A DNA stretch of 45,665 nt, taken from positions 1-45,665 of the forward strand of contig CAIRXZ010000342.1 of assembly GCA_903882645.1 (NCBI GenBank). The letters run 5' to 3'. Within the stretch, counting starts at the first letter, position 1, and every line of letters begins with the position of its first letter. Shown in pieces: positions 1,419-43,278 of the stretch. The position numbers were made by a program, and so were the translations under genes. Source of the stretch: an uncultured Acidobacteriia bacterium. Its GTDB lineage: Bacteria > Acidobacteriota > Terriglobia > Bryobacterales > Bryobacteraceae. Below the pieces are notes generated by a model, which was given only the letters and a program-made list of their open reading frames with translations, was not told the DNA's origin and made no database searches.

Positions 1419-1438
1419 GGCGGGCCGGGGGGCCTGCC
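1419..1438. repeat. REP-like hairpin, 8-bp stem and 4-nt loop
   Basis: GGCGGGCC, a GGGG loop and GGCCTGCC form a stem with one G-T pair just after the reductase stop codon. It has the same architecture as the elements at 7124, 8131, 38163 and 43259. It may also act as a weak terminator, although no T-run follows. Confidence 0.6.
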
Positions 1439-7098: not shown

Positions 7099-8116
7099 GA
7101 TCGTGCGCGATCCAACGAAGCGAGGCAGGCCAGGAGGCCTGCCCCGCGTGGTGGTGGCTATTCTGTGCATGGCCGGCCCGGCCGTCGCCCAGGAAACGCC
7201 CGCGTTCCGCACGAACGTCACCCTGGTACACGTCGTGGCCACGGTGAAGAACCGGGCGGGCGAGCTGGTGGGAGCGCTTCGGAAGGACGATTTTGAGATT
7301 TACGACAACGGCGCGCGGCAGGACATCGCCGTGTTCGAGCGCCAGACGGAGCAGCCCCTCTCCGTGGTTCTGATGATCGACACCAGCGGGTCCACCGGCA
7401 AGGACCTGAAGTACGAAACCGATTCGGCCAGCCGCTTTCTGCGCGCGCTGCTTTCCGAGGGCAACCCGCGCGACGCCGTCGCGTTGTACGGCGTGAATGC
7501 CGACGTGACGCTGCTCCGCGACTTCACGCACAACTACGCGTCGCTCGAACAGCAGTTCCGGCTCCTGCATCCGGAAGGGGCGACGGCGCTTTTCGACGCG
7601 ATCTTCTGGGGTTCGCAGTCTCTCGAGAAGCGCGAAGGCCGCAAAGCGATCGTTATCGTCACCGACGGCGACGACACGTACTCGAAGACCACTTCGCACC
7701 AGGCGCTCGAAGCGGCCCACCTGGCCGATGCCGTAATCTACCCGGTGGTGGTTGTGCCCATCGCGAACGACGCGGGGCGCAACATCGGCGGCGAGCACGT
7801 CCTGACCTTCATGGCGGAAGGAACGGGAGGCCGCACTTTCTTGCCGGCCCTGGGCCCGGACCTCAACAAGGCGTTCGCCGATATCGTCACGGAGCTGCGC
7901 ACGCAATACCTGCTGGCTTTCTACCCGCGCGGCTCGCAATCCACGAAGGACCGGTTTCACAAGCTGGAGGTGCGGGTGAAGGGGCCGGAATTGCAGGTGT
8001 CGGCGCGCAATGGTTATTATGGGGAAGTCGAGGCCGGCGGCGGCCCGGCGGATGCCCGCGTATCGGTAGGCTCCGAAACAACAGGGACGGCGCCCGAGAA
8101 GGGCAAGAAGCCGTGA
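7082..8116 (+). CDS. Secreted VWFA-related acidobacterial domain protein
   Basis: A 344-residue protein with a von Willebrand factor A domain. After the signal segment (cleavage likely at PAVAQ-ETP) comes the domain typical of Acidobacteria: FRTNVTLVHVVATVKNRAGELV, then a MIDAS metal site with DTSGS in VVLMIDTSGSTG, the supporting ATALFD threonine region and VTDGDD. The family is usually secreted and of unknown role, presumably protein or metal binding. The ATG at 7082 is preferred because it gives a shorter leader and a 17-bp overlap with the upstream gene; an in-frame ATG at 7046 is the alternative and also has a possible RBS. The signal region is long because a REP-like hairpin (7124-7143) encodes its RGRPGGLP part. 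Confidence 0.85.
   Translation: MRRRARIVRDPTKRGRPGGLPRVVVAILCMAGPAVAQETPAFRTNVTLVHVVATVKNRAGELVGALRKDDFEIYDNGARQDIAVFERQTEQPLSVVLMIDTSGSTGKDLKYETDSASRFLRALLSEGNPRDAVALYGVNADVTLLRDFTHNYASLEQQFRLLHPEGATALFDAIFWGSQSLEKREGRKAIVIVTDGDDTYSKTTSHQALEAAHLADAVIYPVVVVPIANDAGRNIGGEHVLTFMAEGTGGRTFLPALGPDLNKAFADIVTELRTQYLLAFYPRGSQSTKDRFHKLEVRVKGPELQVSARNGYYGEVEAGGGPADARVSVGSETTGTAPEKGKKP
7124..7143. repeat. REP-like hairpin inside the coding region of the VWA protein
   Basis: GGCAGGCC, an AGGA loop and GGCCTGCC make a perfect 8-bp stem. The element is translated as part of the n-region of the signal peptide, so it either inserted in frame or lies in what was formerly the 5' leader. Confidence 0.6.
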
Positions 8117-8130
8117 TTGCCCCGCGGCAA

Positions 8131-8150
8131 GGCGGGCCGGGAGGCCTGCC
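8131..8150. repeat. REP-like hairpin downstream of the VWA gene
   Basis: GGCGGGCC, GGGA and GGCCTGCC form an 8-bp stem with one G-T pair. It is 15 bases after the VWA stop codon and 28 before the Hfq-like start. Confidence 0.6.
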
Positions 8151-16310: not shown

Positions 16311-16330
16311 GGCGGATCTCCCGGTCTGTT
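16311..16330. repeat. Degenerate REP-like hairpin after rpsT
   Basis: GGCGGATC-TCCC-GGTCTGTT resembles the elements at 38163 and 43259 with two changes, and lies eight bases after the rpsT stop. Confidence 0.45.
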
Positions 16331-29132: not shown

Positions 29133-29160
29133 GTAGGGGTCGGGCATGCCCGACCCCTAC
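29133..29160. repeat. Perfect 28-nt palindrome
   Basis: GTAGGGGTCGGGCA is followed by its exact reverse complement with no loop. It fills the gap between the adaptor stop and the ATPase start. Shorter versions are at 26474 and 27401. Confidence 0.7.
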
Positions 29161-33134: not shown

Positions 33135-33154
33135 CCGTGGGCTGAAGCCCACGG
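33135..33154. repeat. Perfect hairpin CCGTGGGC / GCCCACGG
   Basis: An 8-bp stem with a TGAA loop, of the same sequence group as 17897 and 40977. Confidence 0.55.
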
Positions 33155-33211
33155 CTGGAGTTTCTACATTCCTGTGAAATTATCTGAGTGATCGGAGCGC
33201 TTGATTTGGTG

Positions 33212-33233
33212 GGGCAGGCGGTTTCGCCTGCCC
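33212..33233. repeat. REP-like hairpin ten bases upstream of the RAYT remnant
   Basis: GGGCAGGCG-GTTT-CGCCTGCCC is a perfect 9-bp stem. A second copy with CTTT loop is at 42269-42288. A REP next to a RAYT gene is the usual genetic arrangement. Confidence 0.65.
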
Positions 33234-33243
33234 GGCCCCTGGC

Positions 33244-33411
33244 ATGCCGGACTATCGCAGGAGATTCCCTTATTCTCATCCGCGGGACGCCTGCGTGTTC
33301 CTGACTTGGCGCCTCTGGGGATCGCTGCCGCTCAGAGCGGATTCCGCGGGCCGCGCCGCTGCCTTTCGGCGAATGGACTCCGCCCGCCGGCAAACACCGC
33401 TTCAGCGCCCC
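33244..33411 (+). pseudogene. Truncated REP-associated tyrosine transposase (RAYT)
   Basis: The first 30 codons translate to MPDYRRRFPYSHPRDACVFL followed by TWRLWGSLPL, which matches the N-terminus of RAYT (Y1 transposase family) proteins, where an F(V/L)TWRLxGSLP strand follows a short basic opening. The next part (GRAAAFRRMD) still resembles the following helix, then similarity fades and the frame runs antisense into the stop of the next gene. The catalytic HxH and Tyr regions are absent, so this is a relic of about 50 codons. It suggests that a RAYT once mobilised the hairpin elements in this genome. The identification is by pattern, not by alignment. Confidence 0.65.
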
Positions 33412-34013
33412 TCTTCAGGCGGCGCTTCCGGGACCTTCACCACGGCCTCGCGCTTGGGACCCAGACCCAGCGCTATCAGTGAAAGCGAGTTGATCTTGCC
33501 CGTGGCTTCGATCTTCTGAGCGGCCTGAAACTTCTTCAGGGCGTCCACCGAACTCTGGCCCCACGCGCCGCTGGCATCCGCCGGGTCGAGAAAACCCTTG
33601 GCCGCCAGCGCGTCCTGGATCTGCTTGTACCGCTCCGGCGCGGGCGCCGTCTGGCGATTGCGCCACGTGACGCGTGGCGCCTGTTTGCCGCGCTTCGACG
33701 CGGCGCCTTTCTTCCCGGCCTTGCCGGGGGCCTTGGCGCCCGGCGCCGCCGGTGTGGCGGCCTTTCCGCCGGATGTGGCCTTGGCCGCGGTCTTGCCGCT
33801 GGAGGCGGTCTTCTTGCCGGTCTTACCGGCCGCCTTCGACGGCGGGGCGCCCTTCCTCTTCGGCGCCGTCTTCACGCCGCTCTTCTTGGTCCCCGGCTTG
33901 GAGGACGTCTTCGGGCTTGCGCTGGTCTTCTTCTCGTCCGCCGCGGCGCCGCCCGCGCGCAGGCAGAGCCCCGCCCAAGCAAAGATGCACGCCCATCCAA
34001 GGATCTTCCGCAT
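33402..34013 (-). CDS. Secreted protein with Lys/Ala/Pro-rich linker and peptidoglycan-binding domain
   Basis: A 203-residue protein. A signal peptide spans 1-25 (KILGWACIFAWAGLCLRAGGAAA). Residues 26-118 are a low-complexity Lys/Ala/Gly/Ser/Thr stretch that looks like a histone-H1-type tail and is very basic. Residues 126-190 fit the PG_binding_1 fold: YKQIQDALAAKGF, SGAWGQSSVDALKKFQAAQ and GKINSLSLIALGLG. It probably binds the cell wall, with the basic tail contacting acidic wall polymers, DNA or LPS. It sits between the two export modules on the same strand, with short gaps on both sides, and may be transcribed with the permease upstream of it. Confidence 0.8.
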   Translation of the reverse strand: MRKILGWACIFAWAGLCLRAGGAAADEKKTSASPKTSSKPGTKKSGVKTAPKRKGAPPSKAAGKTGKKTASSGKTAAKATSGGKAATPAAPGAKAPGKAGKKGAASKRGKQAPRVTWRNRQTAPAPERYKQIQDALAAKGFLDPADASGAWGQSSVDALKKFQAAQKIEATGKINSLSLIALGLGPKREAVVKVPEAPPEEGR

Positions 34014-38162: not shown

Positions 38163-38182
38163 GGCGGACCTCCTGGTCTGCC
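38163..38182. repeat. REP-like hairpin, GGCGGACC type
   Basis: GGCGGACC-TCCT-GGTCTGCC with flanks GGTCGGTG before and TTCTTG after. The element at 43259-43278 is identical but for one loop base, flanks included. Confidence 0.65.
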
Positions 38183-43258: not shown

Positions 43259-43278
43259 GGCGGACCTCCCGGTCTGCC
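43259..43278. repeat. REP-like hairpin, GGCGGACC type
   Basis: GGCGGACC-TCCC-GGTCTGCC directly after the DUF4159 gene; near-identical to 38163-38182 over about 35 bases including flanks. Confidence 0.65.

Follow-up and report, generated by a model that had tools for sequence, protein, structure and literature searches.

A RAYT relic as the probable left end of a cassette carried by a hairpin-targeting insertion sequence

The window analysed here, contig C342 (45,665 bases) of genome G000 (5.27 Mb in 366 contigs), probably carries the truncated left end of a non-autonomous cassette, composed of a terminal inverted repeat (TIR), a REP, a RAYT gene, an inverted REP and a second TIR, which would be moved in trans by a hairpin-targeting insertion sequence (IS). 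RAYTs, of the Y1/HUH type, are genes thought to multiply small DNA hairpins, the REPs. The TIR of the cassette is the TIR of an IS701-like DDE insertion sequence with many copies in G000. This IS adjoins hairpins of many sequences. Direct repeats of a whole hairpin were found around one complete IS, around two cassettes with a RAYT and around one with an IS200-type gene.

The RAYT relic, its REP hairpins and intact RAYTs

A sequence-only reading of the window had placed a RAYT fragment at 33244-33411, starting ten bases past a 9-bp hairpin. The spacing to the hairpin was right. A protein match within G000 to an intact RAYT on contig C155 (76% over aa 1-41, E 1.7e-17) and the DNA alignment of window positions 33155-33363 with the same contig (186/209 bp, 89% identity) identify 33244-33363 as the 5' relic of a RAYT gene. 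The homology ends at 33363, therefore the final 48 bases of the proposed interval (33364-33411) are not RAYT. Comparison of the 40 codons with the C155 RAYT gave dN 0.109 and dS 0.181. The profile search that had been suggested for the relic was negative by itself, as its translations (56 aa and 91 aa) showed no Pfam or NCBIfam matches at E 10.

Table 1. Features of the window around the relic and REP-type hairpins elsewhere in it
Feature	Position	Strand	Basis
Hairpin CCGTGGGCTGAAGCCCACGG, 8-bp stem, 4-nt loop; presumed landing hairpin of the cassette	33135..33154		perfect, directly outside TIR; target role presumed
Left TIR GGAGTTTCTACATTC, one mismatch to the IS repeat	33157..33171	+	TIR search
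Subterminal stretch common to the C155 and C336 copies	33172..33204	+	alignment
REP-A hairpin GGGCAGGCGGTTTCGCCTGCCC, TTTGGTG in front	33212..33233	+	perfect; same stem and loop on both sides of C155 RAYT
RAYT 5' relic, about 40 codons	33244..33363	+	protein and DNA match to C155 RAYT
Stretch after the break, without homology to the RAYT unit	33364..33401		alignment to C155
Gene downstream of the break	33402-34013	minus	
Second REP-A hairpin of the window, CTTT loop	42269..42288	+	perfect
REP-B type hairpin GGCAGGCC/GGCCTGCC	7124..7143		perfect
REP-B type hairpin, one G-T position	1419..1438	+	stem check
REP-B type hairpin, one G-T position	8131..8150	+	stem check
REP-B hairpin GGCGGACC TCCT GGTCTGCC, one G-T	38163..38182	+	same sequence flanks C6 RAYT
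REP-B hairpin GGCGGACC TCCC GGTCTGCC, one G-T	43259..43278	+	stem check

The alignment marks the relic as an additional truncated copy, whose left limit is a transposon terminal repeat adjoining an unrelated hairpin, and not the REP. Homology between the window and C155 opens at 33155 with CTGGAGTTTCTACATT, immediately past the unrelated hairpin, at the 15-bp TIR GGAGTTTCTACATTT. An ordinary REP-RAYT unit, with the REP as its outer limit and a RAYT that decayed in place, would also present a REP and a RAYT relic side by side, like known REP-RAYT units, and RAYT-A relatives of 61-63% identity in G017 (L141) and at L199 have REP-like hairpins and no TIR that we could find. We nevertheless consider decay in place very unlikely. 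The homology to C155 extends 50 bp beyond the REP and stops at a TIR beside a different hairpin, an intact cognate RAYT exists, and as a full account decay in place is contradicted by the C155 alignment together with the left-end structure shared with other copies.

Perfect hairpins (stem at least 8 bp, loop 3-5) number 12 in the window versus 2-8 in ten dinucleotide shuffles. Eight REP-like hairpins had been listed by the sequence-only reading; those at 7124, 33212 and 42269 are perfect, those at 1419, 8131, 38163 and 43259 each contain one G-T position, and the one at 16311 is degenerate. The genome-wide stem count proposed along with the list gave 75 exact sites of pattern A across G000 versus 0 for the reversed control. 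For pattern B the strand matches were 112 and 105, versus 0 and 3 in the control, sites with fully palindromic arms being scored on both strands. The window hairpins belong to real, high-copy REP families, which also flank RAYT genes. GTGG stands immediately before the hairpin on one strand in 20 of 23 distinct A hairpins with enough context. Another perfect hairpin, of 12 bp (GTAGGGGTCGGGCATGCCCGACCCCTAC, 29133-29160), is of a type used elsewhere in the genome as a landing site of the IS and has no TIR match nearby.

The notion that the local RAYT has decayed holds for the window copy, but intact RAYTs persist in G000 on contigs C155 and C6. A search for an intact RAYT between the same stems found RAYT-A on C155 (195 aa), with inverted A hairpins on both sides; the cognate RAYT is therefore not lost. 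RAYT-A scored 28.5 bits against Pfam Y1_Tnp (cut-off 23) and 65.2 bits against NCBIfam REP_Tyr_transpos, below the cut-off of 80, and matched the PDB chain 4er8 'TnpArep' with E 2.4e-5. It contains the HUH-like motif NHVH and YIEGNP, is a Y1/HUH transposase gene (IS200-related), and lies between inverted, genome-abundant REPs. The RAYT profile gave six matches in G000, two of them above the cut-off. The C6 gene (RAYT-B; 80.0-80.5 bits against REP_Tyr_transpos) has B hairpins on its flanks, and RAYT-C, at C223 and C296, is flanked by hairpins GTGGGGCAGCC...GGCTGCC. Among named records, the nearest RAYT relatives come from MAGs of Bryobacterales and other Acidobacteriota. Relative to the RAYTs of L197, L198 and L140, the C155 gene showed dN/dS of 0.15-0.22, a rough value because dS is about 1.0-1.65. 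The cassette RAYT is conserved between species and is probably still working on its own REPs.

Further RAYT-like genes were observed in G000. The two RAYT-C copies (L057 on C223, L058 on C296) are 92% identical over 745 bp, and their similarity stops outside the REPs, without the IS TIR, so that this RAYT unit is present twice in one genome. On C214 (L054), another RAYT-like gene lies between inverted copies of AAAGGGGACAGACGCATT, which resemble the GGGGWSAS repeats of TIRYT genes as given in the available passages of PMC3733652. A 179-aa Y1 protein on C316 (L059) is encoded among CAACCGCTCCCTTGCGGTCGCGGCTCTGAC repeats, seemingly a further REP family.

A terminal inverted repeat shared with a hairpin-adjoining insertion sequence

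Exact copies of the TIR 15-mer number 38 in G000, and allowing up to two mismatches raises the count to 64 (control 0); the 13-mer ATGTAGAAACTCC has 40 occurrences versus 0 in the control. Of the 36 distinct flanks of exact TIRs, one IS accounts for 34 (18 left and 16 right ends, mostly at contig ends) and the C155 RAYT unit for the other two. In 35 of these 36 flanks a perfect stem (≥7 bp) adjoins the TIR within 0-4 nt, compared with 110 of 20,000 random window positions (0.55%), and the sole exception, the left flank of C155, has a hairpin with one mismatch. The sequences of these landing hairpins differ widely. REPs are among the landing sites of the IS, for example one of type A at C110 and REP-B-like ones at C68 and C256. 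Degenerate TIRs in G000 adjoin hairpins less often (7/13 with one mismatch, 4/9 with two). For exact TIRs in relatives, 18/29 adjoin a perfect stem (≥6 bp). An exact 16-base TIR is present in 7/61 genomes, with 37 occurrences in G000 and 27 in G023 (control 0).

The right end of the IS encodes a transposase C-terminus, detected at 17 G000 locations and in 4/61 genomes; this 89-aa stretch alone matched no Pfam family. The G000 assembly contains no full-length copy of the IS. Fuller copies, G022:C59 and G003:C327, gave the IS701 profile NF049999 as best match, with 131 and 157 bits (130.7 and 156.7), under its cut-off of 170. The G003:C327 copy is complete, with 1,876 bp, and bears a 23-bp direct repeat of a whole hairpin on both sides, compared with the target duplications of 4 bp reported for IS701 elements. 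An IS1182-type identity had first been supposed because the targets are hairpins; it was dropped, as the transposase profiles point to IS701/IS4 relatives.

In the longest open reading frames of eleven TIR-bearing loci (from G022, G023, G033, G037, G039 and G003), no transposase was recognised by inspection except that of the G022 IS; L302 gave none, the exact TIR not being found there. For the G023 elements, neither this inspection nor the search with the IS C-terminus yielded a moving enzyme. The G022:C59 copy (L284) has a second open reading frame ahead of the transposase, for a short protein ending TGKNTFGLRPEAR. At L127 (G000:C131), a single hairpin lies between two facing TIRs, one being the IS right end and the other the end of another element with internal hairpin repeats.

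RAYT and IS200-type genes between the repeats

At C155, the TIRs surround a REP-RAYT-REP unit of 682 bp, and the unit is flanked by a 24-bp direct repeat, with one mismatch, which is the target hairpin in full. The left ends on C155, in the window and on C336 share the TIR and the subterminal sequence and adjoin three different hairpins; the C336 end has no RAYT. The arrangement is repeated around RAYTs in other Acidobacteriota. In the MAG palsa_129 (L201, the same place as G023:C4) both TIRs are exact and a 20-bp hairpin is duplicated. L198 (palsa_124) has both TIRs without a duplication, and L140, from the same genus, has both TIRs in decayed form. One-sided TIRs were detected at L197, L159 and L149 (left) and at L242 (right). 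Altogether, a TIR with up to three mismatches borders 8/110 distinct RAYT stretches (113 loci) on one or both sides; the majority of the RAYTs tested lack one. The reversed TIR was never found at RAYT loci with up to three mismatches, and a TIR in the wrong orientation once.

The RAYT stop codon lies inside the right TIR at C155, L140 and L201, and at C155, L140 and L197 the REP hairpin supplies the codons for the C-terminus of the RAYT, WQAKPPAPP. RAYT fragments are situated just inside the TIR at the G023 loci L345, L348, L350 and L360. In the same genome, 11/27 exact TIR ends run into the same hairpin-containing 30-mer, while four are too close to a contig end to be judged. Pieces like the right end of the RAYT-A cassette, with CCCAGGCGATCGAGCC before a decayed TIR, occur in G000 on C81 (L125) and C1 (L130); some of them stand beside REP-A hairpins, and no RAYT gene was seen there.

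A second kind of passenger is an IS200-type transposase gene (150 aa; 62.2 and 56.0 bits against NF033573, cut-off 55). At G023:C45 it has the same TIRs at both ends and a duplicated hairpin of 24 bp. One or two TIRs lie near this gene at 3/4 other places: on both sides of a broken gene at G000:C361, on the right at G000:C275, and on the left, with three mismatches, at G023:C75. The fifth place, G000:C64, has no TIR. IS ends around a passenger with no IS transposase gene inside are seen at C155, L201 and G023:C45.

Whole-hairpin repeats are present in 4/9 two-ended elements and absent in 5/9, the nine being those met along the way and not a systematic sample. The four repeats scored 20-24, compared with 17 for the best of 72 mismatched flank pairs. 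This bears on a reading by which separate IS or TIR insertions on either side decayed to bare ends, so that the unit came to be bracketed by accident and was never mobile in its entirety. REPs around RAYTs would be targets of the IS because they are hairpins, and the IS does land on REPs (C110, C68, C256). TIR orientation, spacing and subterminal sequence, however, agree among C155, the window and C336, and both the C155 and the L201 unit are enclosed as a whole by a single duplicated hairpin, which weakens accidental bracketing to the point that we hold it to be highly improbable.

Alternatively, the TIRs could be part of the Y1 element, like those of TIR-associated tyrosine transposases (TIRtrons), and the unit would be moved by the Y1 enzyme instead of a DDE enzyme. 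Y1 genes with terminal inverted repeats have been described, with Acidobacteria included (passages of PMC3733652), and G023 combines 27 exact TIRs with no match to the IS C-terminus. Yet an IS that encodes a DDE transposase of its own terminates in this TIR, 34/36 distinct exact flanks belong to that IS, and the TIR is common to two distantly related Y1 types; RAYT-A relatives without a TIR exist, and long target repeats are no trait of IS200/IS605 elements as portrayed in the consulted part of PMC2817692. Movement by the Y1 enzyme therefore seems very improbable to us.

On the RAYT tree, the TIR label needs five changes, at least three of them forced by well-supported branches. The tree comprises 80 rows, 7 of them TIR-bearing; sequences with <42% identity or <75 residues were dropped, identical rows entered once, and L149 was recognised as TIR-bearing only after the tree was made. 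Several captures and one capture followed by losses fit this tree alike. An empty-site comparison for the window insertion found the neighbouring permease in 3/6 relatives, whereas in the four loci compared nothing matched the gene across the insertion at E 1e-3. The genomes compared are mostly drafts.

The preferred reading, a cassette carried by the IS, would have the following course. A hairpin-targeting IS would have taken up REP-RAYT units as passengers between its ends, and its transposase may act in trans on the TIRs of the RAYT cassette, as the shared ends and duplicated hairpins suggest. We infer that the transposase joins the cassette ends to an extruded hairpin at both of its feet; duplication of the hairpin would then follow from repair. 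The window copy would have landed beside the hairpin at 33135-33154 and lost its right part later. Roles would be divided between the RAYT (Y1/HUH), credited with spreading hairpins, and a DDE enzyme that lands on hairpins and carries the RAYT. Such IS-ended cassettes with duplicated target hairpins are a concrete candidate vehicle for the spread of RAYTs and suggest how normally immobile RAYT-type genes can move. Hairpin duplication could moreover add hairpin copies without RAYT activity, which bears on explanations of REP populations.

A wider proposal, which we put forward tentatively and judge somewhat doubtful, is that two unrelated transposition systems are coupled: the Y1 enzyme would seed hairpins, and the DDE IS would land on and copy hairpins and repeatedly package the hairpin-maker between its ends, the packaged hairpin-makers being RAYTs of several lineages and the IS200-type gene. 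If this is true, RAYTs are truly mobile and every landing of the IS is a second route of REP multiplication.

Comparison with known transposition systems

Mobile insertion cassettes and MITEs consist of a passenger between IS ends without the IS transposase gene. The elements described here differ in their passenger, a REP-RAYT unit, which is a transposition-type system in its own right. No report of a RAYT carried by an IS was found in the open-licence literature searched, which is weak evidence of absence because only open-licence papers were covered. Known singly are REP-targeting ISs, hairpin-targeting ISs with passengers, and Y1 genes with inverted repeats, as far as the consulted passages go (PMC1525189, PMC4923244, PMC3733652, PMC6006769).

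The REPtron was defined as a Y1 transposase gene between inverted genome-abundant REPs, conserved in evolution (Nunvar 2010, PMC2817692, in part), and the C155 unit shares all these traits. The same paper, which named the RAYTs, states in the passages available that they show neither multiple copies nor changed positions and lack IS-like mobility. In contrast, the units described here have extra terminal repeats outside the REPs and copies at different positions. TIRYT/TIRtron genes are likewise RAYT-like genes between inverted repeats, also in Acidobacteria, but in the excerpts consulted their repeats, often GGGGWSAS, replace the REPs (PMC3733652, PMC6006769), whereas here both REPs and TIRs are present. 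The TIR is moreover found on a DDE IS and with another type of Y1 gene, which sets the present elements apart from TIRtrons.

Other REP-targeting ISs also use REPs as landing sites (PMC1525189, in part); here the landing sequences are many, and a REP-RAYT unit is found between the IS ends as well. The IS701 family gave the best transposase profile, with scores under its cut-off, and agrees with the IS in a length of about 1.9 kb. Its duplications are given as 4 bp in the part consulted of PMC2266710, compared with 23 bp around the one complete copy here, and duplications of 20-24 bp are therefore unusual.

A parallel in target choice is offered by IS1272 and TnSha1 of the IS1182 family, which insert at hairpins with no sequence preference, TnSha1 with a passenger gene (PMC4923244, PMC5678879, both in part). 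The transposase here is of another family by profile. According to the same excerpts, IS1272 replaces or partly deletes the hairpin, whereas here the hairpin is duplicated (PMC4923244, PMC5678879). Duplication of the hairpin is drawn there as the other route, alternative (b) of the IS1272 model (PMC5678879), to which the strand transfer at the hairpin feet proposed above would correspond. The whole-hairpin duplications seen around the IS and its cassettes would then be a natural case of a route merely drawn for IS1272 in that part of the model (PMC5678879).
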